45,793 nt of DNA, from the NCBI GenBank assembly GCA_039028635.1, contig JBCCHV010000056.1, positions 1-45,793 on the forward strand, read 5' to 3'. This DNA is from Acidobacteriota bacterium (lineage in GTDB: Bacteria > Acidobacteriota > Thermoanaerobaculia > Multivoradales > JBCCEF01). This document shows positions 23,669 through 35,369 of the stretch, one piece after another. Both the position numbers and the translations under genes were made by a program. The notes beneath the pieces are model-generated. The model did not search any database. It saw only the letters and a list, made by a program, of their open reading frames with translations, and had not been told where the DNA came from. Positions within the stretch are counted from its first letter, which is position 1; each line of letters begins with the position of its first letter.

Positions 23669-24793
23669 TCAGACCAGCTCGCGAATGTACTTCTCGCGCA
23701 GCAAACGCCAGAACACCACCAAGAACGCGGTCAACGGAATCGCCAAGATCATGCCCATGATGCCGCCCAGCGCCGAGCCCCAGAAAAACACCGCGACGAT
23801 GATGGCGAGGGGATGAAGCCCGGTGCGCTCCCCCATGATGCGGGGCGTCAACAAATAGCCCTCGATCATCTGGACGATGGTGAAGACGGCGATCACCAGA
23901 CCCAAGAGCAACCAACCCCCGCCTTCCTGGAACAGCGCCAAGGGGAGCGCGATCCCCAGGCCGACGATGCTGCCGAGGTAGGGAATCACGTTGAGGAAGC
24001 CCAGCGCCAAGCCGAGCACGAAACCGTAGCGCAGGCCCACCGCGCTGAAGCCGACCGCGAACAGCAGGCCCTGGAGAAAGGCGATCACCAGCTGGCCGCG
24101 GAAAAAGGCCACGATGATCGACACGAACTCCTCGACCAGGTAGACCAGATCGCGCCGCGTCTCCTCCTTGAGGAAGGGCAGGTAGTCTTCCAGCCGACCG
24201 ACGGACTTCGACTCCGCCATCAGAAAAAAGGCGAAGTAAACTGGCAGCACCGCCCAGCCCAACAGCGTGCCGACGCCGCGCACCAACACGCCGCCGATGT
24301 CGAGGGCCTTGCCACCGAAGATCTGCACCCCTTCCATCAGGGTCGACTGCTGACTCTCGGCGGCTTCCTTGATCCGCTGACCCCAGGGATTCTCATTGAA
24401 GAACTGGGCGATCCGCGGCACCCGGCGCTTGATCGACTCGAGCTGGGCCGCCCACCAGTCCGGGAACTGCGCCACCAAATCCGAGATCTGGTCGACCAGC
24501 AGCGAGCCGAACTTCCACAGGAAGGCGCCCACCGGCAGCAGAATCGAGAGAAACACCAGCGCCACCGCGATGGATGCCGGCATGCGCGACCGCAGCCACT
24601 CGAAATAGGGGTTGAAAACCAACGCCGCCACCCCGGCCACGGCGAGCGGCAGCAGCACTCCCGAGAATCGCTGCACAAAAGCGCCGAGGAGCCAGAAGAG
24701 GCCAGAGACGGCGGCCAGGATGACGAGAGCTGCCAGGATGGTGACGGCACTGGCGACGGCCGCCTGCTGGCGCTCACTGAGCGAGAACGGCAT
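23669..24793 (-). CDS. AI-2E/PerM family membrane transporter
   Basis: 374 residues if translation starts at the ATG at 24791-24793, which is 9 nt from AGGGAGG; the ATG two codons earlier is too close. Eight or so hydrophobic helices with the AI-2E (PerM/YdiK) signatures: early helices (ILAALVILAAVSGLFWLLGAF), a soluble segment (about 95-200, WWAAQLESIKRRVPRIAQFF), then GLRYGFVLGLALGFLNVIPY, LGSIVGLGIALPLALFQ, YLLTPRIMGERTGLHPLAII and SALGGIMGMILAIPLTAFL. Some members export autoinducer-2 or act as cation antiporters; the substrate here is unknown. Confidence 0.9.
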   Translation of the reverse strand: MPFSLSERQQAAVASAVTILAALVILAAVSGLFWLLGAFVQRFSGVLLPLAVAGVAALVFNPYFEWLRSRMPASIAVALVFLSILLPVGAFLWKFGSLLVDQISDLVAQFPDWWAAQLESIKRRVPRIAQFFNENPWGQRIKEAAESQQSTLMEGVQIFGGKALDIGGVLVRGVGTLLGWAVLPVYFAFFLMAESKSVGRLEDYLPFLKEETRRDLVYLVEEFVSIIVAFFRGQLVIAFLQGLLFAVGFSAVGLRYGFVLGLALGFLNVIPYLGSIVGLGIALPLALFQEGGGWLLLGLVIAVFTIVQMIEGYLLTPRIMGERTGLHPLAIIVAVFFWGSALGGIMGMILAIPLTAFLVVFWRLLREKYIRELV

Positions 24794-24915
24794 GGGCATT
24801 CCTCCCTCCAGGATGCGGAACTTGCGTGGCGCGATCGTAACTCACCGCTGAGTTTCCTACGACCGAAGGACCGCACAGATTCCTGGACGTCGCATCGCCC
24901 AGGCCGGTGAAGAGC

Positions 24916-25992
24916 TCAGCTCTCGAACAGCGAGAGCTGCACCTGACCGCCCGGCCAGAGCTTCGCCGCGCCGAGGCCGAGCAGGCGTACCGAGCGCGCC
25001 CCGGCGTCGGTCTTGCGCAGCAGATCGCGGCCGTGCCAGGCGAGCGTTTCCACCGTCCGGGACGGGGTCAGCAGGGTGCGCGACCGAGTGATGGTGGTGA
25101 AATCGCCGTAGCGCACCTTCAAGGTCAAGGTCGAGGCCATCAGATCGCGCTTCTCGAGGCCGGCGGCGACCCGCTCCGCCAACCGGCCGATTTCGCGATC
25201 CATCTCGTCATGGGTGCGGAGGTCTTCCGCATAGGTGTTCTCGCTGCTCAGGCTCTTGCGCTCGCGATGGGTGGTCACCGGACGGTGATCGATCCCGCGG
25301 GCGGAATTCCACAAGCCCTCGCCCCAGCGCCCGAAGCGCGCCTCCAGGAGCTCCTGGGGCAGCCCTCGCAGCTCGGCGATGGTCTTCACGCCGAGGCCTT
25401 CCAGGGACTTGGCAGTGGCCGGCCCGACACCGTGCAGGCGCCGTACCGAAAGCGGCGCCAGAAACGCCATCACCTCCTGCGGCCGCACCACCGTCAGGCC
25501 GTCCGGCTTGTCGTGATCGGAGGCGATCTTGGCGACCAGCTTGTTAGGCCCGACACCGACCGAAACGGTCAAGCGCCGCTCCTCCTGCACCCGACGACGA
25601 ATTTCCCGCGCCACCGCCGTCGCGCTTCGCAGCTCGCCGAGGTGATCGCTGACGTCGAGGTAAGCCTCGTCGATGGAGACCCCCTGCACCACTGGCGAGA
25701 AGGAGCGGAAGATCTCGAAGATCTTCTCCGACTCGCGGCGGTAGCGGGGGAAATCGGGGCGGATGAAAACCGCCTGGGGACAGAGCCTGAGGGCGCGCGC
25801 CGCCGGCATCGCCGAGCGCACCCCGAAGCGCCGAATCTCATAGCTGGCGGCGGCCACCACGCCACGGCCGGAGGGATCGCCACCGATCGCCACCGGCAGA
25901 CCGACGAGGGCCGGATCGTCGCGCATGTGCACCGCGGCATAGAAGCAATCCATGTCGCAGTGCAGAATGCGGCGGACGCGATCGCTGGCCAT
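24916..25992 (-). CDS. dinB: DNA polymerase IV (Y family)
   Basis: 358 residues from the ATG at 25990-25992; the frame continues much further upstream but without family similarity. Translesion polymerase of the DinB type. Visible: RRILHCDMDCFYAAVHM (catalytic Asp and steric-gate region), AAASYEIRRFGVRSAMP, PDFPRYRRESEKIFEIF, VVQGVSIDEAYLDVSDH (catalytic Asp-Glu), SVGVGPNKLVAKIASDHDKP, LHGVGPATAKSLEGLGV (helix-hairpin-helix) and the little-finger domain. The C-terminus GQVQLSLFES contains a QLSLF beta-clamp-binding motif, so it can be recruited to the replication clamp. Single gene, divergent from the ECF sigma gene; the 165 bp between hold several TA-rich -10-like hexamers (TAGAAT near 26016). 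Confidence 0.94.
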   Translation of the reverse strand: MASDRVRRILHCDMDCFYAAVHMRDDPALVGLPVAIGGDPSGRGVVAAASYEIRRFGVRSAMPAARALRLCPQAVFIRPDFPRYRRESEKIFEIFRSFSPVVQGVSIDEAYLDVSDHLGELRSATAVAREIRRRVQEERRLTVSVGVGPNKLVAKIASDHDKPDGLTVVRPQEVMAFLAPLSVRRLHGVGPATAKSLEGLGVKTIAELRGLPQELLEARFGRWGEGLWNSARGIDHRPVTTHRERKSLSSENTYAEDLRTHDEMDREIGRLAERVAAGLEKRDLMASTLTLKVRYGDFTTITRSRTLLTPSRTVETLAWHGRDLLRKTDAGARSVRLLGLGAAKLWPGGQVQLSLFES

Positions 25993-26157
25993 CTCCCCCA
26001 CCCTATCGCGGGCAGAGTAGAATCTAGGCTCTGGTTCCCTGAAGCCCTCCGGGGCTGAGTTTTTCGTTGCCGTCTGCGCTGAAGTTCCTGAGGACACCTT
26101 CGTGCCTTCCAAGCCCGAAGAGAATCGCCGCCCCGTAGCTGGCCGCGCCGCGAGGAG

Positions 26158-26715
26158 ATGATGCTCACCGACAAGGCCTTCGACAGTCTGATGGGCTATC
26201 TGGGTCCGGACGAACAGTCGGCGGGGCGCCGTTACGAGGAGATTCGGCAGCGTCTGATCCGGCTCTTCCAGTGGCGCGGCTCGCTCGATCCGGAAGAGCT
26301 GGCGGACGAGACCATCAACCGCGTCGCCCTCAAGCTCGCCTCCGGCGTCGAGATTCGCTCCGAGGATCCCTTCCGCTACTTCTGCGGCGTCGCCCACTTG
26401 GTGTTCAAGGAGATTCTGCGCCGCCAGAAGCGCGAGCGCACCATGATGGAAGAGGTGCGCCAGACCCCGGAGGCCGTGCCCGAAGACTCGGAAGACCCGC
26501 GCATGGACTGGCTGCGTCAATGCCTCGACCAGATGACACCCGAGAACCGCCGCCTGATGATCGAGTACAACCAGGGCGAGAAGGGCCAACGCATCCGGCA
26601 CCGCAAGCGTCTCGCCGGCGAGCTGGGGATTCAGATCAACGCCCTGCGAATCCGAATTCACCGCTTGCGGAGCCGCCTCGAGAGCTGCGTCAAAGAAAGA
26701 GCCGCCGCTTCGTGA
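26158..26715 (+). CDS. ECF-type sigma factor
   Basis: 185 residues, GAGGAG directly before tandem ATGs (26158 and 26161). Sigma region 2 is recognisable (about 28-85: RLIRLFQWRGSLDPEELADE, TINRVALKL, RYFCGVAHLVFKEILRRQKR) and region 4 (about 122-180: LDQMTPENRRLMIEYNQGEK, LAGELGIQINALRIRIHRLR). Sigma factors of this sort, with an 'SLDPEELADET.NR' region 2, are frequent in Acidobacteriota next to TPR/CHAT genes. It is the first gene of the signalling island, 67 bp before its membrane-bound anti-sigma factor, and presumably activates the island itself. Confidence 0.88.
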   Translation: MMLTDKAFDSLMGYLGPDEQSAGRRYEEIRQRLIRLFQWRGSLDPEELADETINRVALKLASGVEIRSEDPFRYFCGVAHLVFKEILRRQKRERTMMEEVRQTPEAVPEDSEDPRMDWLRQCLDQMTPENRRLMIEYNQGEKGQRIRHRKRLAGELGIQINALRIRIHRLRSRLESCVKERAAAS

Positions 26716-26782
26716 AACGTATTTCAACAATTCGACACCTCTCCATAGAAGCCCACGGAGGGCGGACCCGGAGAAGCGACGG

Positions 26783-27724
26783 ATGAACGAACAGAACCAA
26801 CTAGAACGCTACCTATTGGGCGGTCTCTCGGAAGCCGAGAGGGACACCCTCGAAAACCGCCTACTGGCCGATGGCGAGCTCGTCGAGGCGATGGCCATCG
26901 CCGAAGAAGAGCTGCTCGACGCCTACGCCGCCGACGAGCTCACGGCGGAGCGCCGGCAGGCCGTCGAGGCCCACTTGCTGACCACCCCGGAGCAGCGCCA
27001 GCGGCTGGCCTTCGCCAGCGCCTTGCAGGCGGTTGCCAACGCCGAGTCCGGCGGACGGGTGATCGGCGGGGCGCAGCGCTTCCGGCGCTGGGCGGCACCG
27101 CTGTTGGCCGCAGCGGCGGCTCTCATGCTGGTCGTCGGTGGCGTTCTGTGGCAGGACAATCGTCAGCTCGGTGAGCGCATCGCCGGCCTCGAAGCCGAAC
27201 GCCAAGAGCTGATCGCGACGCAGCAGTCCCTCGAGGCCCAGCGGCGCGCCGACAGCGAGCGTTCCGGTGACCACGAGACGGCACGCAAGCAGCTCGAGGA
27301 GGATCTGAGCAACGCCAATCAGCGCCTCGAGGAGCTGACCTCGGAGCTCGAGCTCGCCAAGCGCCGCTCGCCGCGACCGCCACGCCGCGCCAGCTTCGTG
27401 CTGGCAGCAGCACTGCGCTCCGCCACCGGACCCCGCGACCTGGCCGTTCCGGCGGCCACCGAGGTCGTCGACCTGACTCTCGAAATCGGCTCCGAGGAGT
27501 CCTACTCCGCCTATGTCGCCCTGCTCTACGGCCCCGACGGGCGTGAGCTGTGGAGCCGAGCCGACCTCAGCGGCAAATCCGGCGAGGCAGGAACCGCGGT
27601 CACTCTCGAGGTGCCCGCCTCGGCCTTCGGGAACGGTCTCCACGAAGTCTTGCTCCACGGCCGCCAGGGCGCTGCAGAACCGGAGCTGCTGGGCTCCTAC
27701 GAATTCTCCGTCAGCGGCCCCTGA
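26783..27724 (+). CDS. Membrane-anchored anti-sigma factor
   Basis: 313 residues. Residues 1-85 form a helical anti-sigma-like domain (LERYLLGGLSEAERDTLENR, EEELLDAYAADELTAERRQA, TTPEQRQRLAFASAL) without the HxxxCxxC zinc motif of ZAS proteins. One membrane helix at 103-123 (WAAPLLAAAAALMLVVGGVL), a periplasmic coiled coil at about 125-195, then a C-terminal beta domain (about 205-313: RDLAVPAATEVVDLTLEIGS, AYVALLYGPDGRELWSRADL). The architecture lets a periplasmic signal control the cytoplasmic sigma factor encoded just upstream. The C-terminal domain may sense ligand; related domains occur in similarly placed anti-sigma proteins. Confidence 0.82.
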   Translation: MNEQNQLERYLLGGLSEAERDTLENRLLADGELVEAMAIAEEELLDAYAADELTAERRQAVEAHLLTTPEQRQRLAFASALQAVANAESGGRVIGGAQRFRRWAAPLLAAAAALMLVVGGVLWQDNRQLGERIAGLEAERQELIATQQSLEAQRRADSERSGDHETARKQLEEDLSNANQRLEELTSELELAKRRSPRPPRRASFVLAAALRSATGPRDLAVPAATEVVDLTLEIGSEESYSAYVALLYGPDGRELWSRADLSGKSGEAGTAVTLEVPASAFGNGLHEVLLHGRQGAAEPELLGSYEFSVSGP

Positions 27725-27803
27725 GCCGACGGACGAGAGGCGCGGCCAAAGCCCCGCGGCGAAGCCCGCCGTCGCTCGCCTTGGCCCGCCCCACGGGCAG
27801 GGT

Positions 27804-27809
27804 TAGAAT
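27804..27809 (+). promoter_or_regulatory. Putative -10 element of the CHAT gene
   Basis: TAGAAT lies 57 nt before the ATG at 27867. No TTGACA-like -35 is present at 16-18 bp, consistent with an ECF or otherwise activated promoter. It separates the CHAT gene from the sigma/anti-sigma pair. Confidence 0.35.
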
Positions 27810-27866
27810 CCTGCCAGTACTTCGGAAGTCTTTTCTTCGCCATGGGGCGGATTCTCTTGGGGGGAG

Positions 27867-30800
27867 ATGAAGCGCACCGCTCGGATCCTCGTCTGGTTGG
27901 CGACCGCGATGCTTCTCTCCTCGGCGCTGCTTGCCGAGGCCATCGGTACGGCCGTCATCGAACAGCCACTCGCAGGTGGCCAAGAGCATCGCTACGCGCT
28001 GACCTCGGAAGCGGACCGCTACCTCCACCTGCGAGTGGAGCAGATCGGCATCGACCTGGTGGTCGATCTGGTCGACGCCGCCGGTGAGCCCCTCGCCCAT
28101 GCCGACAGCCCCCACGGCAATCGCGGCCCCGAGCATCTCCATGCGCTGATCCCCGAGGCCGGCCCCTACGAGGTGGTGATCAAGGCTCCCTACGAGGACG
28201 AGCCTGCGGGGCGCTACCGCCTCGAGCTGATCGAGCACCGACCGCCCCGGCCTGCGGACCACACGCGAGTGCTGGGCGAACGCCTGCAGGGCGAAGCCCT
28301 CGCTTCCTGGGCGAGCGGCGGCGAAGCCCGGCGCCGTGCCATCGCGCTGTTTCACGAAGCACTCCCTCACTGGCAGACCCTAGAAGACGTCGCACGGCAG
28401 GCGGAAACCCTGACCTTCATCGGCAACGTTCACCGCTCCCTCGGCGAAGCGGCCGAAGAAGCTCCCTTCTACCGCCGCGCCCTGCCCCTCTGGCGCAGCC
28501 TCGGCAATCGTCAACAGGAAGCCCAGGTGCTCAACAGCCTGGGAGCCGCCAACCGCCGCCTCGGCAACAGCCAGGAAGCCCTCGAATCCTCGGGGCGCGC
28601 CGCCGAGCTGTTCCGCGCCCTCGGCGACCAGCGCAACGAAGCCGCCGCCCTCAACAGCTTGGCCGGCATCCACATCGAGCTCGGCGATCTCGCCCAGGCT
28701 CGGCGCCTGTTCGAAGACTCCTTGAAGCTGCGCCGCCAGGTCGGTGATCGACGCGGCGAAGGTCGCACCCTCAACAATCTCGGCCGGGTCCTGCAGCGCC
28801 AGGGCGAAGCCCAGGCCGCCGTCGCCGCTTTTGAACAGGCTCTCGAGCTCTCCCGCCAGACCGAGGATCGACTGGCCGAAGCCGGCGCCCTCAACAACCT
28901 GGTGGCGATCTCGAGCTCCCTCGGCCGCCTGCGCCGCTCCCTGGACCTCTACGGCCAGGTCTTGGAGCTCGCCCGCGAGCTCGACAACCGCCGTGCCGAA
29001 GCCTACGCCCTCAACAACATGGGCACCCTGCACAAGAGCCTCGGGGAGAGCGCCGAGGCGATCATCTACTACCGCGACGCCCTCGACCTCGCCCAGAAGC
29101 TCGGCGATCGCCGTATCGAAGCCAAGGCGGTCGCCAACATCGGCTGGGCCTACCTCGCCGACGACCAGGCCGAAGTCGCCCTCGGCTATCTCGAACGCGG
29201 CCTGGCCCTGGCGCAAGAGCTCGGCGAACCGCGCCGGCGGGCCTTCGCCCTGATCAACCTGAGCATGGCCCACTCGGAGCTCGGACAATCGGACCAGGCG
29301 CTGCAGCTCGCCCGGGAGACGGTGGCGCTGACCGCCGAGATGGATGACCGCATCGTCAAAGCCGAGGCCCAACGTCGACTCGGCGAGGCGCTGCGCGATG
29401 GCGGTCAGCTCGCCGAGTCGCTACCCGCCTTCCACCGTGCCCTCGAAACCTGGAGCGCGCTCGAGTTCCACAGCAGCCGCGCCGGAGCGCTCTTCGAGCT
29501 GTCCCTGGCGGAGCGCCGCCTCGGTCAGCTCGAGGATGCCCGCCGTCATCTGGTGGCGGCCCTCGAGACCATCGACGACCTGCGCACGCAGGTGGCGGTG
29601 CACGACCTGCGCGCCTCCTTCCTGGCGGCCAAGGGGGACTATGCCGAGACCTACATCGACCTGCTGATGGAGCTTCATCAGGCCGAACCGCGGGCCGGCC
29701 ATCAGCTCACCGCCCTCGAAGCCAGCGAGCGTGGCCGAGCGCGCACCCTCCTCGATGCCCTCACCGAGGTCCATGGCCGCATCCGACAGGGCGTCGAGCC
29801 CGCGCTGCTCGAACGGGAGGCGGCGCTGCGCGCGGCCCTCAACGAACGCGAGCGACAGCGGGTGGCGCGCCTCGGTGAAGGCGCCGACGAGACCGTCGTC
29901 GCGAACCTCCTGCAACAGATTCAGGATCTGCGCAGTGAGCACCGGGCGGTCGAAGAACGGATCCGCAGCACCAGCCCTCGCTACGCCGCCTTGACTCGCC
30001 CGGCACCGCTCGGCGTCGGCGCCCTGCAGGACCTGCTCGATTCGAACACCACCCTGCTGCACTACAGCCTGGGTGAAAAGCGCAGCTTCCTCTGGGTGCT
30101 GACGGACGACAGCGTCGAAAGCCACCGGCTGCCACCGCGGGCCAAGATCGAGCAGGCGGCGCGCCGCCTCTACGAGCTGTTGACGGCCGCCAACGTCTCG
30201 CGCCAGGGCGAGACTGCCCAGCAACGGCAGGAGCGCCTGGCAGCAGCCGAAGATGATTTCGAAACCGTCGCCGGCAGCTTGTCGGCGGACCTCCTGGGAC
30301 CGGCCGCCAACCGCCTCACCGGGGGGCGAGTGGTGATCGTCGCGCCGGGGGCGCTGCAGTACATCCCCTTCGCCGCCTTGCCGGCCCCGGGCGGCAACGG
30401 TCGTCCGATGGTCGCCGATCACATCCTGGCGAATCTGCCTTCGGCTTCGGTTCTCGCCATTCTGCGCAGCGAGGCAGCGCGACGACAGGCACCGGGCGGC
30501 GAGCTCGCCATCGTCGCCGATCCGGTGTTCCGGCGGGAGGATCGCCGGGTGCGCCAGGCCAAGCTGGCGGCCGCCGAAGCCTTGCGCTCGACGCCGGACG
30601 ATAGTCTCGATTTCCGCCGCCTCTATTTTTCGCGCCAGGAAGCCCGCACCATCGCCGCCATGGTGCCGCCGGAATCGCGCCTCGAAGCGCTCGACTTCGC
30701 GGCCCGCCGGGAGCTCGCCGTCGACGGTGCGCTGAGCGACTACCGGCTGGTGCACTTTGCCACCCATGGCGTCCTCAACACCGACTACCCGGCCCTCTCA

Positions 30801-31190
30801 GGACTGGTGCTGTCACTGTTCGACGACCAGGGCGAAGAGCGCGAGGGATTCTTGCGGCTGCACGACATCTACAACCTCGAGCTCAACGCCGATCTGGTGA
30901 CCCTCTCCGCCTGCGAGACCGCCCTCGGCCGTCAGATCCAGGGCGAGGGGCTGATCGGCCTGACCCGCGGCTTCATGTATGCCGGCGCACCACGAGTGGT
31001 CGCCAGCCTGTGGAAGGTCCAGGATCGCGCCACCGCCAAGCTGATGGAGCGCTTCTACGCCGGCATGCTGCAGAAGAACCTCCCTCCGGCGGAAGCCCTG
31101 CGCGCCGCCCAGGTCTCTCTGTGGAGCTCCGAGAAGTGGTCCTCGCCCTACTACTGGGCCCCGTTCGTTTTTCACGGCGAGTGGCGATGA
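27867..31190 (+). CDS. Exported TPR-CHAT caspase-like protease
   Basis: 1107 residues after a GGGGGGAG site. Signal peptide 1-26 (ILVWLATAMLLSSALLAEA), a pre-peptidase C-terminal-like beta domain (about 27-125: HRYALTSEADRYLHLRVEQI), then about ten or more TPRs (150-620, each starting EA.ALNNLG or similar), a coiled linker (about 630-720) and a CHAT domain (about 740-1107). The CHAT catalytic pair is present: His967 in VHFATHGVLN and Cys1016 in LSACETALGRQ; also LYFSRQEARTIAAM and RGFMYAGAPRVVASLWKVQD. It should be an active cysteine protease of the caspase/separase clan with substrates chosen by the TPRs. The two small proteins encoded 58 bp downstream are candidate substrates or partners (inference), although they carry no export signal. 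Confidence 0.92.
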   Translation: MKRTARILVWLATAMLLSSALLAEAIGTAVIEQPLAGGQEHRYALTSEADRYLHLRVEQIGIDLVVDLVDAAGEPLAHADSPHGNRGPEHLHALIPEAGPYEVVIKAPYEDEPAGRYRLELIEHRPPRPADHTRVLGERLQGEALASWASGGEARRRAIALFHEALPHWQTLEDVARQAETLTFIGNVHRSLGEAAEEAPFYRRALPLWRSLGNRQQEAQVLNSLGAANRRLGNSQEALESSGRAAELFRALGDQRNEAAALNSLAGIHIELGDLAQARRLFEDSLKLRRQVGDRRGEGRTLNNLGRVLQRQGEAQAAVAAFEQALELSRQTEDRLAEAGALNNLVAISSSLGRLRRSLDLYGQVLELARELDNRRAEAYALNNMGTLHKSLGESAEAIIYYRDALDLAQKLGDRRIEAKAVANIGWAYLADDQAEVALGYLERGLALAQELGEPRRRAFALINLSMAHSELGQSDQALQLARETVALTAEMDDRIVKAEAQRRLGEALRDGGQLAESLPAFHRALETWSALEFHSSRAGALFELSLAERRLGQLEDARRHLVAALETIDDLRTQVAVHDLRASFLAAKGDYAETYIDLLMELHQAEPRAGHQLTALEASERGRARTLLDALTEVHGRIRQGVEPALLEREAALRAALNERERQRVARLGEGADETVVANLLQQIQDLRSEHRAVEERIRSTSPRYAALTRPAPLGVGALQDLLDSNTTLLHYSLGEKRSFLWVLTDDSVESHRLPPRAKIEQAARRLYELLTAANVSRQGETAQQRQERLAAAEDDFETVAGSLSADLLGPAANRLTGGRVVIVAPGALQYIPFAALPAPGGNGRPMVADHILANLPSASVLAILRSEAARRQAPGGELAIVADPVFRREDRRVRQAKLAAAEALRSTPDDSLDFRRLYFSRQEARTIAAMVPPESRLEALDFAARRELAVDGALSDYRLVHFATHGVLNTDYPALSGLVLSLFDDQGEEREGFLRLHDIYNLELNADLVTLSACETALGRQIQGEGLIGLTRGFMYAGAPRVVASLWKVQDRATAKLMERFYAGMLQKNLPPAEALRAAQVSLWSSEKWSSPYYWAPFVFHGEWR

Positions 31191-31248
31191 CGCCCGTCGT
31201 TTCGAGGCCCTCGCGGGCCTATCCCTCCATGCAATCGAGGAGATCACG

Positions 31249-31530
31249 ATGAGAGTAGACAACGGTACGACCGACCCGGTGGACTTCGAACAGACTGGTG
31301 GCGGCGGTGATCCCCAGGACCCCGCCGACAGCAAGCAGAGCAAGTCCGGCCATCTCAATCCTTCCGGTCAGTCGGGGGATGACGAGAGCTTCACCCCGGC
31401 CGGCAAACCGAACTACACGGTGAGCTTCGAGAACTCCAACAACAAGAGCCAGACGGCCACGTCGGCGCCGTTCTCGAACGCCAGTGCCACCGTGACCTTG
31501 AACAGCGACTGGACCGTTTCGGTCAGCTAG
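31249..31530 (+). CDS. Small protein A of a tandem pair with a constant N-terminus
   Basis: 93 residues, GGAG 8 nt before the ATG. No signal peptide, membrane segment or Cys. Residues 1-22 (MRVDNGTTDP to GGGGDP, including VDFEQT) are identical to those of the next gene. A disordered acidic/Ser/Gly linker follows, then a beta-rich C-terminus: SFTPAGKPNYTVSFENSNNK and ASATVTLNSDWTVSV, probably a small beta-sandwich. It lies 58 bp after the CHAT protease gene on the same strand. I know of no characterised homologue. The Gly4 run after the constant segment could act as a hinge or as a cleavage-site neighbour; that is speculation. Confidence 0.75.
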   Translation: MRVDNGTTDPVDFEQTGGGGDPQDPADSKQSKSGHLNPSGQSGDDESFTPAGKPNYTVSFENSNNKSQTATSAPFSNASATVTLNSDWTVSVS

Positions 31531-31534
31531 GGCA

Positions 31535-31819
31535 ATGCGAGTCGACAACGGCACGACCGACCCGGTCGACTTCGAGCAGACCGGCGGGGGAGGAGACCCC
31601 GACGACGAGCTCGAGAACTGTCAGGTGACCGGCAACCTCAAACCAGGCGGCAGCGCCACCTTCGTCCCCGGCTGTCGCCCCCCGTGGACGGTGGTCTTTC
31701 GGGACAACAGCAAGCACGCCAAATCGCGCCCTCTACAAGCCAACGAGGCCAACGCCAAGGTGGTCTTGTGCGCCACGGCCGGCAAATGGAAGGTCAAGAT
31801 CAACGCCGACTGCGACTGA
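31535..31819 (+). CDS. Small protein B of a tandem pair with a constant N-terminus
   Basis: 94 residues; starts 4 nt after the stop of small protein A, without a good ribosome site, so probably by coupled translation. Residues 1-22 are identical to protein A, while 11 of those 22 codons differ synonymously and none non-synonymously. The C-terminal part aligns loosely with protein A: GNLKPGGSATFVPG against GHLNPSGQ...SFTPAG, PPWTVVFRDNSKHAK against PNYTVSFENSNNKS, KVVLCATAGKWKVKI against TVTLNSDWTVSV. Protein B has four Cys and a more basic surface. The pair is thus an old duplication whose N-terminus is under strong constraint and whose C-terminus diversifies. Function unknown. Confidence 0.75.
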   Translation: MRVDNGTTDPVDFEQTGGGGDPDDELENCQVTGNLKPGGSATFVPGCRPPWTVVFRDNSKHAKSRPLQANEANAKVVLCATAGKWKVKINADCD

Positions 31820-31823
31820 TCGC

Positions 31824-31856
31824 CAGGGTCGGCGGAGCTTTTTTCCGTCGGCCCTG
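31824..31856 (+). terminator. Hairpin after the small-protein pair
   Basis: A 13-bp stem with two G-U pairs (31824-31836 with 31844-31856) and a T-rich 7-nt loop follows the stop of small protein B by 4 bp. No T-tract follows the stem, so it may be an RNA-stabilising or weak terminator hairpin rather than a classical intrinsic terminator. Confidence 0.4.
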
Positions 31857-31875
31857 AAATACTTTGCCGCGCCAC

Positions 31876-31907
31876 GACACTCTCGACTGAAAGGTCGAGA
31901 TCGTGTC
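31876..31907 (+). promoter_or_regulatory. Hairpin enclosing the kinase start codon
   Basis: CTCGAC (31882-31887) pairs with GTCGAG (31894-31899) around the loop TGAAAG; outside it GACAC (31876-31880) pairs with GTGTC (31903-31907), which includes the GTG start of the kinase. Folding would hide both the start and the weak purine-rich leader, so kinase translation may be held low or be controlled. Confidence 0.35.
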
Positions 31908-32778
31908 CCTCTTAGCCCATCCCTCTGCAACGCTCCCCAAGACGGAAGCGTTTCCGGTGCCCTGGCGCCGGCCGACGGCGCCGCTCGTCCGGGACCAAGA
32001 ACCCGCGCCCCTGCGCTACCGCGGTCTCGAGCTGATCGGCGAAGGCGGCATGGGCAAGGTCTATCGAGCCTGGGACCCGGTTCTGCGGCGCACCGTCGCC
32101 CTCAAGCGCCTCTTCGGCGCCGGCTGCGATTGTCGCGAAGAAGCCCGCCTGCAGTCGCGGGTGGGCAGCCCTTGGGCGCCGACCGTCTTCGAGGTCGCCA
32201 CCGACAGCCAGCCGCCGTTTTTCGCCATGGAGCTGATCGATGGTCCGACCCTGCGCCAGGCACGCCCACGGCTCGAGCTGGCCACCAAGGTGAGCCTGGG
32301 CCGCGAGCTCTGCCGGGCCGTTGACGCCTGCCACCGCAGCGGTGTCCTGCATTGCGATCTCAATCCCAGCAACGTCGTGATCCGCCCCTGCGGGACGCCT
32401 TGCCTGATCGACTTCGGCGTCGCCATCGACCGCGCCGCCCGCCGCCCCCATCACGTCGCGGGCACGGCCCCCTTCATGGCCCCAGAGCAAGCCCGCGGCG
32501 ACTTCCTGGCGATCGACGAGCGCACCGACGTCTACGGCCTCGGCGCGACCCTCTACCAGCTTTTCTCCGGCCGCCAACCGTTCCGCGGCGAAACCGCCGA
32601 GGCGATTCGCGACCGCGCCGTCCATCAGCCCCCACCGCCCCTCGCCAGCTTCGCCCCGGAGCTGCCCAAGAGCCTCTGCCAGATCGTCGAGCGTTGCCTG
32701 GCGAAAGCTCCCGAAGAGCGTTTCCAGAGTGCCGCTCAGATCGCCGGCGCCCTGGACGACGCCTCGATCGCGGCCTGA
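31903..32778 (+). CDS. Soluble bacterial Ser/Thr protein kinase
   Basis: 291 residues from a GTG. Kinase domain from about 38 to 285: Gly loop GEGGMGKVY (46-54), Lys68 in VALKRL, catalytic loop LHCDLNPSNV (Asp152, Asn157), DFG at 170-172 and APE at 193-195 (APFMAPEQARGD), then TDVYGLGATLYQLFSGRQPF. The catalytic loop reads HCD instead of HRD, making it a non-RD kinase, a class often regulated other than by activation-loop phosphorylation. There is no membrane helix and no PASTA or other sensor domain; the first 37 residues are Pro-rich and unstructured. It lies in the CHAT island 83 bp after small protein B, which places it as a candidate regulator of that island. Confidence 0.9.
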   Translation: MSLLAHPSATLPKTEAFPVPWRRPTAPLVRDQEPAPLRYRGLELIGEGGMGKVYRAWDPVLRRTVALKRLFGAGCDCREEARLQSRVGSPWAPTVFEVATDSQPPFFAMELIDGPTLRQARPRLELATKVSLGRELCRAVDACHRSGVLHCDLNPSNVVIRPCGTPCLIDFGVAIDRAARRPHHVAGTAPFMAPEQARGDFLAIDERTDVYGLGATLYQLFSGRQPFRGETAEAIRDRAVHQPPPPLASFAPELPKSLCQIVERCLAKAPEERFQSAAQIAGALDDASIAA

Positions 32779-32900
32779 GAGCCGGGCTTTCACCGCCGGC
32801 GAGGCCCGGACCTCGCCTCCTCTTTCCCCAGCGCCACCAGCGCTCTCCCGGCGCGCCCAAGGCCGGTGAGCCGGGTGCAGATGTGGCCAAAGGGCTCTGC

Positions 32901-32906
32901 TATGAT
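32901..32906 (+). promoter_or_regulatory. -10 element of the EAL gene
   Basis: TATGAT with a TGC just before it (extended -10 like) lies 9 nt before the first in-frame ATG (32916) and 27 nt before the second (32934). It indicates that the EAL gene has its own promoter, separate from the kinase gene. Confidence 0.45.
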
Positions 32907-32915
32907 TTCCAATGT

Positions 32916-33710
32916 ATGGATTCCCGTCATTTGATGGATTCATCTCTTCTTGCCATGACATCTGAGCCTATTTCCGGCCCTAGCAGCCACCACGACGAGA
33001 TCGAGGCCCTGCATCGCGTCATCGACGGCAAGCTGCTGCGCATCGCATTTCAGCCGATCGTCGATATCCGGACTCGCAAGGTCTACGCCTACGAGGCGCT
33101 GGCGCGCTCGCCCTTCCCGATTTTTCAGGGGCCGCAGCATCTCTACGAGGTCGCCGTGCGGGCCGGTCGGGTCGGCGAGCTCGGTCGGCTGCACCGCATT
33201 CAGGCGACCAAGACCTGCACCGGCTGGCCGCTGTTCCTCAACGTCAATCCCAACGAGTTCGACGAGGGCTGGCTGGTGCGACCGGACGACCCCCTGTTCT
33301 GGCATCGTCACCAGGTCTTCCTCGAAATCACCGAGTCTGCGCCGCTGATCTATTTCGAGCAGTGCTACGGGGTGATTTCCGAGATCCGCAAGAAGCGGGT
33401 CAACCTGGCGGTCGACGACTTCGGTGCCGGCTACTCGAACCTGCGCTACATCTCGGATCTGTCGCCGGACATCGTCAAGCTCGATCGCCAGCTAGTGGCC
33501 GGTCTGCGGGAAGGGTCCCGCCTCTTCCGGCTGGTGCGCTCGATCGTCCGCCTGTGCAAGGAGATGGGAGCCCAGGTGGTCGCCGAAGGGATCGAGACGG
33601 TGGAAGAGCTCGCCGCCGTCGAGTCGGCACGGGTCGACTTCGTGCAGGGCTTCCTGCTCGCCCGCCCGGGCCTGCCGCTGCCCGAAGCCACCTGGCCCGC
33701 CTCCCTCTAG
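32916..33710 (+). CDS. EAL-domain c-di-GMP phosphodiesterase
   Basis: 264 residues from the ATG at 32916; ATGs at 32934 and 32955 are also possible, since no ribosome site decides. A stand-alone EAL domain occupies residues 28-260. All catalytic positions are present: E60-A-L (YEALARS), Asn109 in LNVNPNE, Glu137 in EITES, Asp167-Asp168 in AVDDFGAGYSN, Lys188 in VKLDRQ, Glu in AEGIET and Gln in DFVQGF. It should hydrolyse cyclic di-GMP to pGpG, lowering the level of this second messenger. No sensory or GGDEF domain is attached. Convergent with fumC, with only 13 bp between the stops and no evident terminator. Confidence 0.92.
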   Translation: MDSRHLMDSSLLAMTSEPISGPSSHHDEIEALHRVIDGKLLRIAFQPIVDIRTRKVYAYEALARSPFPIFQGPQHLYEVAVRAGRVGELGRLHRIQATKTCTGWPLFLNVNPNEFDEGWLVRPDDPLFWHRHQVFLEITESAPLIYFEQCYGVISEIRKKRVNLAVDDFGAGYSNLRYISDLSPDIVKLDRQLVAGLREGSRLFRLVRSIVRLCKEMGAQVVAEGIETVEELAAVESARVDFVQGFLLARPGLPLPEATWPASL

Positions 33711-33723
33711 CGGACGGCATCCC

Positions 33724-35124
<1,401 letters not shown>

Positions 35125-35369
35125 CGCCATCTCTCCTCCGGCTCCACCATGGGCCGATTCACCCTCAAATCCTCTCATAGACCCGCGCCGTTGGCAGCGC
35201 CGAAATCCAGCTTCGGGAGGCCCGGAGGAGAGCGCCTTCGCCGCTCTCGACGGGACGATCTCGCCACCGTCCGGCGAGCCGCGATGCAATCCCGGGCGGG
35301 CAGCCGCGGGGACCTCGAGATGGCGGTGATAGGGTCTCGGCCTCTGCAGATTTCCATGAGGGCCCGGCC

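Follow-up and report, generated by a model that had tools for sequence, protein, structure and literature searches.

Sequence comparison places two tandem small genes beside a CHAT protease gene in an undescribed small-protein family

We find, by sequence comparison, that two adjacent small genes in a bacterial locus belong to an undescribed family of small proteins, one linked to loci of CHAT proteases. The genes lie in a 45,793-nucleotide stretch of an Acidobacteriota genome (class Thermoanaerobaculia), here called the window. The computed family has 11 members in 10 loci: two in the window, one in a second genome of the same genus (G001), and eight from 140 other CHAT regions. It is probably rich in beta-strands. 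We tentatively propose, with slightly less than even confidence, that these proteins could be dedicated accessory partners of a proteolytic switch comprising a CHAT protease, an anti-sigma factor, and an ECF sigma factor.

Small protein 1 (positions 31,249 to 31,530, forward strand; 93 amino acids, no Cys) and small protein 2 (31,535 to 31,819, forward strand; 94 amino acids, four Cys) were both called as open reading frames with a positive codon score. Four bases separate the stop of the first from the start of the second. Codon comparison delimits a constant head of 22 codons in each gene (31,249 to 31,314 and 31,535 to 31,600, both forward strand), which encodes MRVDNGTTDPVDFEQTGGGGDP in both, with 22/22 residues identical. 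Eleven of the 22 head codons differ, each by a single base and always synonymously; ten of these changes are in third positions and one is in the first position of an Arg codon. By Nei-Gojobori counts, changes fall on 11 of the 15.7 synonymous sites of the head and on none of its 50.3 nonsynonymous sites (pS 0.70, pN 0); in the tail, the corresponding counts are 19.8 of 41.7 and 74.2 of 147.3 (pN 0.50). Thus, with synonymous change near saturation and no residue change, the two genes are not fresh copies of each other, and the head has been kept as protein. On the strength of the same near saturation, we rejected recent gene conversion, as well as the idea that the heads are alike for reasons acting on DNA or RNA. 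The original prediction, made from this DNA alone, had described exactly this pair of genes, of about 93 to 94 residues, with an identical 22-residue head and 11 synonymously differing codons. It had also excluded recent duplication or gene conversion, as do the site counts.

The two proteins match with E = 1.2e-16 and are 48% identical overall, with about half of this identity contributed by the head. Their tails can be aligned along their length (19/63 residues identical), and that of small protein 1 is rich in Ser, Thr, and Asn. The tails are therefore homologous and differ in Cys content, as had been predicted for the C-termini. Including upstream sequence, the open frames span 105 codons for gene 2, 99 for the G001 gene, and 161 for gene 1. 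Because its frame is this long, the start of gene 1 was placed by homology and by its ATG.

The genome of the window (G000, with the window on contig C56) and G001 belong to one genus, and G001 is the sole other genome of their taxonomic family in the genome set. It has a single homologue of the small genes in the same slot, between the CHAT and kinase genes, with 20/22 identical residues in the head and 33/70 in the tail. Across the genus comparisons, pN ranges from 0 to 0.06 in the head and from 0.36 to 0.51 in the tail. This supports the preservation of the head by protein-level selection within the genus, in agreement with the strong selection originally proposed. For calibration, protein identity between the two genomes is 66% for the ECF, 56% for the CHAT, 50% for the anti-sigma, and 48% for the kinase proteins. 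An identity of 20/22 is also reached by 67 of 1,812 22-residue segments of these neighboring proteins (ECF 38, CHAT 27, anti-sigma 2, kinase 0). The head is thus among the most conserved segments of the locus, where others equal it.

Upstream of the small genes, all on the forward strand, lie genes for a sigma factor, an anti-sigma factor, and a CHAT protease. The sigma factor (26,158 to 26,715; 185 amino acids) is a candidate ECF-type factor, with matches to TIGR02989 (42.6 bits) and TIGR02937 (22.9 bits) that are both under the curated cut-offs and a Pfam Sigma70_r4_2 match (E 0.062) that is likewise below cut-off. The anti-sigma factor (26,783 to 27,724; PF13490, 25.6 bits against a cut-off of 22.2) has an N-terminal zf-HC2 domain, a single hydrophobic membrane segment evident in the translation, and a long C-terminal part. 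Its called homologues each have one membrane segment by simple hydropathy, at about residues 110 to 115. The TPR-CHAT protease (27,867 to 31,190; 1,107 amino acids) matches PF12770 (223 bits) and TPR models, and contains HFATHG and LSACET motifs, which we take to hold the catalytic His and Cys. Directly after small protein 2 is a terminator-like hairpin with a T run (31,820 to 31,835, forward strand), a weak call given six such sites in the region and 3.9 expected in shuffles. A Ser/Thr protein kinase gene follows (31,903 to 32,778, forward strand; 291 amino acids, kinase domain only; PF00069, 106 bits), and its 48% identical homologue is likewise 3' of the G001 small gene (1,721 to 2,602 of locus L221).

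The CHAT/ECF/anti-sigma cluster (23,669 to 35,289 in the window; also L221, L222, L223, L224, and L226) has dinB-like, AI-2E-like, or fumarase-like flanks, named by eye. Flanks of these kinds recur across two taxonomic families, though the CHAT gene and the sigma pair have exchanged order. A dinB-like and/or fumarase-like flank (names by eye) is present in the window, G001, G453, G454, G455, and G456. Such shared flanks make the cluster look like an old, vertically kept locus.

Relatives of the small genes were recovered from DNA next to CHAT genes. A BLAST search with gene 2 in 396 genomes of the phylum returned 12 genomes at E 0.01, of which only G000 and G001 were accepted; the remaining ten (E 0.0009 to 0.01) look by eye like unrelated or non-coding frames. 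A profile of the three genus members returned 56 of 148 class genomes at E 1, none convincing beyond the genus. A scan of genome contigs detected three CHAT loci and no small protein. CHAT genes were listed in 147 genomes of the class Thermoanaerobaculia, 49 of which had a match at 1e-30 among the matches listed. For 140 of these matches, the DNA that follows the CHAT gene was read, in some cases only up to a contig end. The first 100 regions yielded eight new members and the other 40 none. Three of these are clear members from a single genus, g228 (G453, G454, and G455; leave-one-out E 3e-16 to 2e-26), and five are weak (G456, G451, G386a, G386b, and G412; leave-one-out E 0.006 to 1.2). In a set of 3,193 sequences, every weak member ranks above all outsiders, although G456, G451, and G386b do so by just 0.4 to 1.2 bits, and the weak members had been selected with the same pattern. 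Position gives additional support to G456, where the order of CHAT, sigma, anti-sigma, small gene, and small membrane-protein gene is that of G454; its flanks are dinB-like and AI-2E-like by eye.

Broader profile searches brought no further members. With six members, 22 of 147 class genomes matched at E 0.1, including the profile's own rows. Several of these matches are weak (E 0.001 to 0.1) and fall on a kind of secreted protein that turns up repeatedly, carries LPAG...WTVIFNK, and lacks the head; this type, presumably DUF2911-like, was set aside, and the remainder look like chance. A profile of eight, for which the best 12 candidates per genome were scored in a first look, gave matches at E 0.03 in three of 396 phylum genomes; two of these are G000 and G001, and the third, in G262, is a frame that looks like chance. 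A profile of ten gave 10 matches below 1e-14 in 147 class genomes, each one a row of the profile itself, and away from these loci no match fell below 0.004; its reach is limited, as it missed the G456 member, which was absent from the profile. Searches of Pfam, NCBIfam, and PHROGs with eight of the 11 members (all except G386a, G386b, and G412) returned no family at E 0.5 to 1, consistent with the earlier remark that no described system with this head is known. At title and abstract level, with subscription journals thinly covered, the literature matches listed contained no description of these small proteins. In the same scope, they contained none of an exported CHAT/ECF/anti-sigma switch in Thermoanaerobaculia.

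All 11 members are housed in a CHAT locus, an association that is partly by design since members were sought beside CHAT genes. Of the 140 further regions read behind CHAT genes, only eight contain one. Both ECF and anti-sigma genes can be seen in eight of the 10 loci: those of the window, G001, G453, G454, G455, G456, G386a, and G386b, where they are divergent. In G412, an ECF gene comes next and the stretch then ends; in G451, the contig ends within the CHAT gene. The order is ECF, anti-sigma, CHAT, small gene in the window and G001. CHAT comes first in G453, G454, G455, G456, and G386a, followed by ECF, anti-sigma, and the small gene. The proposed link to CHAT/ECF loci is thus upheld by the eight further regions together with the window and G001, with nothing found elsewhere below 0.004 in 147 genomes.

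Across lineages, the head can be described by the pattern M-x-[IV]-x-N-x-[TS], which is seen in 10 of the 11 members (with one extra residue in G412). Position 13 is F or Y in nine of 11, and a GG begins at residue 17 to 19 in 10 of 11. The G386b protein lacks the head pattern and was joined to the family via its tail. In the tail, many rows share, with gaps, a turn rich in G and two strands, one resembling W-T-V-x-F and the other V-x-L. Mean identity between lineages is 0.29 in the head and 0.17 in the tail, and the head is the higher in 35 of 42 pairs (G453, a near copy of G455, was omitted, and three within-genus pairs of 45 were set aside). Within g228, head and tail pN are 0.118 and 0.132 for G455-G453, 0.31 and 0.41 for G455-G454, and 0.27 and 0.41 for G453-G454. 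On these alignments, the head opens a single homologous small domain, and variation affects the entire domain. The extreme constraint of the head is particular to the window's genus and sits atop a mild family-wide bias.

These comparisons bear on the central idea of the original prediction, a constant head carried by unrelated tails. It is not supported, as the tails show homology and the head, too, changes from lineage to lineage. The predicted split in constraint between head and tail is seen in the window's genus and is lost in the closest g228 pair. Equal constraint in homologues had been set beforehand as one outcome that would count against the prediction, and this pair comes close to it.

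Structure prediction gave low confidence, with a pLDDT of 44 for an alignment of the window proteins only and 56.5 for gene 2 alone. In the low-confidence gene 2 model, the head has no strands of at least three residues, and the strands fall in the fast-changing tail. A Foldseek search with a low-confidence model returned no fold match (best E 4.1). PDB profile matches to WD-40 repeat proteins (E 5.2e-5 to 0.006, positions 46 to 86) were rejected as chance matches to repeats, with no single stretch passing.

Small genes beside CHAT genes were also counted more widely. We scored 83 of the first 100 CHAT loci; 17 were dropped for a contig end or a doubtful CHAT end, including five loci of the family (L091, L095, L101, L118, and L166), and the later 40 loci were searched for the family and excluded from the 83. 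A same-strand gene of at most 200 amino acids starts within 400 bases after CHAT in 35 of the 83 loci, two of which carry the window's family. In the remaining loci, the first gene is on the opposite strand (20), larger (13), or an ECF gene (10), or nothing close was called (5). Clustered at E 1e-3, the 35 small proteins give a group of seven and a pair, and the other 26 stand singly. Nine of the 33 non-family proteins have a GG with at most six residues left to the C-terminus, compared with about 2 to 2.6 in control segments and shuffles; as this pattern was chosen after viewing the data and the proteins include some relatives of one another, we take it as no more than a lead. GGG per se is not enriched among them (5/33, controls 2.9 to 3.5).

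Several further features of these regions can be recorded. CHAT-side small proteins of other types lie downstream in L081, L083, L107, L108, L121, L167, and other loci. The motif F-x-G-x-[WY] is close to the start in six of the 35 small proteins, and a post hoc C-terminal expression, [FW][GT][AG][EDS][EDGS]..G, matches seven of the 33 non-family proteins, with 0.2 expected. By eye, L083 and L107 have similar C-terminal ends with M. The small proteins of L083 and L121 match no Pfam family at E 0.5. L083 has a tandem small-gene pair (340 to 741 and 1,166 to 1,600), which was rejected as a parallel to the window pair because its DNA is still similar and it looks like a more recent copy. In eight loci (L111, L115, L130, L134, L144, L151, L251, and L260), CHAT is followed, mostly after a gene for a short Pro/Asp/Gly-rich peptide, by a gene for a protein of about 450 to 510 amino acids that begins like NG[IV]DGxTGxYL; this arrangement is recurrent. 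Two loci from one genus, L060 (G440) and L076 (G016), have 21-residue frames downstream of CHAT that read MRVQTGIKAG...GGG and MKIRTGIKAG...GGGE. In Saprospiraceae (Bacteroidota), CHAT genes are likewise found among small genes (L204 and L205), and L205 has three tandem, copy-like genes for 258 to 263 amino acids.

A modular organization of the CHAT slot in Thermoanaerobaculia can be imagined from such observations, and we consider it very unlikely. Small partners of many unrelated families would share a short constant end, serving as the handle for a common CHAT/export machine, with interchangeable sensor or effector bodies. That end would be the N-terminal GG head in the window's family and something like G-[VE]-[FMW]-G-[AG]-[ED]-[ED]-x-G-G at the C-terminus in others, the rest being fast-changing.

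The compartments of the proteins were judged by simple hydropathy (13-residue mean within the first 50 residues) rather than by a dedicated signal-peptide tool. A strongly hydrophobic N-terminus (mean of about 1.85 or more) was computed for 10 of the 12 CHAT proteins with a called start, and for six of seven among those of family loci; the two remaining proteins score 1.11 and 1.55, and their starts are doubtful. At 2.02, the window CHAT protein has a predicted export signal. By the same measure, none of the 11 small proteins has a strongly hydrophobic N-terminus (maximum 1.19). Gene 2 and the G001 gene also lack upstream space for a signal peptide, since their frames are so short. Since export is predicted for CHAT but for none of the small proteins, the two may never meet, which is a difficulty for the suggested reading of the head by the CHAT protease. 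G000 and G001 each have two C39-peptidase matches, which in G000 are on contigs C41 and C23, apart from the window on C56. An unlinked C39 ABC exporter cluster is common to both genomes (L275 and L276, names partly by eye), with TolC-like, HlyD-like, C39 ABC, and second ABC-like genes and no small precursor gene called nearby.

For the window locus, we infer a switch of the following kind. The TPR-CHAT protease, if exported as predicted, would sense a signal, perhaps via its TPR repeats, and cleave the anti-sigma factor in its outer part, thereby freeing the sigma factor. The small protein would act in this switch as a dedicated partner, whether regulator, ligand, or substrate, with the N-terminal segment (M-x-[IV]-x-N-x-[TS]...GG) as its most constrained contact surface. 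In the window's genus, the gene was duplicated, with the segment kept and the remainder altered in charge and cysteines. Since both copies keep the segment while charge and Cys differ, each copy may answer a different signal.

Other roles for the head have to be weighed against this. The view originally suggested takes the head for a portable recognition tag that CHAT cuts or binds, with the tail as variable cargo. This suits the constant head and faster tail of the window's genus and the CHAT gene adjoining the small genes, and it has a precedent in Csx29, which cuts the product of a neighboring gene (PMC10028731). The short C-terminal motif common to some other CHAT-side small proteins is a possible parallel, found post hoc. 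However, the tails are homologous rather than unrelated cargo, the head itself diverges along the phylogeny, and only CHAT has a predicted export signal. A portable tag is therefore weakened as an explanation and, in our judgment, quite unlikely, while a partner role for the small proteins stands as a proposal. The first interpretation thus survives in its selection on the head within the genus, its CHAT/ECF link, and its lack of a described family, and is not supported in its constant head on unrelated tails. The head could also be a plain structural part of the small domain, kept by both duplicates for folding, as might be expected of a segment that belongs to a family-wide domain and is matched in conservation by 67 of 1,812 segments of neighboring proteins. 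We regard this as unlikely, in view of the low-confidence gene 2 model that places the strands in the tail and none in the head.

Two further explanations take the missing export signals as their starting point. The small proteins may be cytoplasmic regulators acting on the sigma factor, on the anti-sigma factor's inner part, or on the Ser/Thr kinase, with CHAT a mere genomic neighbor. No export signal was predicted in any of the 11 proteins, a kinase gene is directly downstream in the window and G001, and the small gene comes directly after the anti-sigma gene in G453, G454, G455, G456, and G386a. Yet no kinase gene was called beside the small gene in G453, G454, and G455, the G451, G386b, and G412 members do not come after an anti-sigma gene, and small protein 2 has four Cys and small protein 1 a tail rich in Ser, Thr, and Asn, features that may hint at an exported location. 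On balance, a cytoplasmic role is on the unlikely side. Alternatively, the Gly-Gly-ended head might be a leader that is removed by an unlinked C39-peptidase ABC exporter, so that the tail is exported and meets CHAT outside. Such a leader would account for a constant head and a free tail, and it agrees with the position of the GG, with the lack of a Sec-like signal, and with the C39-peptidase genes of G000 and G001, one of which per genome lies beside HlyD-like and TolC-like genes (by eye). Known GG leaders have a hydrophobic residue at -4, whereas only three of the 10 heads with GG do. Moreover, the eight scanned members match no Pfam or NCBIfam leader model, the head changes about as fast as the tail in g228, and there is no exporter in the locus, the C39 genes being on other contigs. 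We find the leader barely plausible.

Partners are known, to our knowledge, for few CHAT proteases, and several genomes of the class have at least 16 CHAT matches. A small duplicated gene with one conserved segment provides a candidate CHAT partner or substrate, together with the residues to mutate. If the proposed switch is real, exported caspase-like proteases would be tied to transcription via an anti-sigma factor, outside any CRISPR system.

The locus resembles several known systems in part. Bacterial gasdermins are encoded by genes beside those of caspase-like proteases, whose likely targets they are, much as the small genes, candidate targets, lie beside the protease gene here. They are much larger proteins, and the eight small proteins scanned had no Pfam match. 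In regulated proteolysis of RseA, the protease DegS cuts and releases a membrane anti-sigma factor (PMC10028731). Shared with the window are a membrane-spanning anti-sigma factor (PF13490 above cut-off, one segment in homologues), an exported protease, predicted here, and an ECF sigma factor (models below cut-off). The window differs in having CHAT instead of DegS, with a putative proteolysis step, and in its extra small proteins. EACC2-caspase systems, proposed to combine sensing with a transcriptional response, likewise bring together a caspase-superfamily protease, an ECF sigma factor, and a TPR protein in one neighborhood (PMC8195603). There, the variable part and the caspase make up one fused protein; the small proteins of the window are separate genes.

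The locus is also close to type III-E CRISPR loci, where the TPR-CHAT protease Csx29 cuts the inhibitor Csx30 and frees the ECF-type CASP-sigma (PMC10028731). In both cases, a TPR-CHAT protease, an ECF-type sigma factor, and a sigma inhibitor share one locus, and the protein at 27,867 to 31,190 has the TPR-CHAT makeup of the type III-E Craspase (PF12770, TPR models). No Cas7-11 or CRISPR genes were recognized by eye among the listed open reading frames at 24 to 40 kb, and PADLOC returned no Cas match for six genes of the locus (kinase: best 25 of 34). With NF041236, the model for type III-E sigma factors, whose cut-off is 100, the window sigma factor reaches 22.9 bits and so falls outside the CASP-sigma family. 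In contrast to the Csx29 system, CHAT has a predicted export signal here, the inhibitor is a zf-HC2 protein with a membrane segment, and the small proteins of 93 to 94 amino acids are an additional component.
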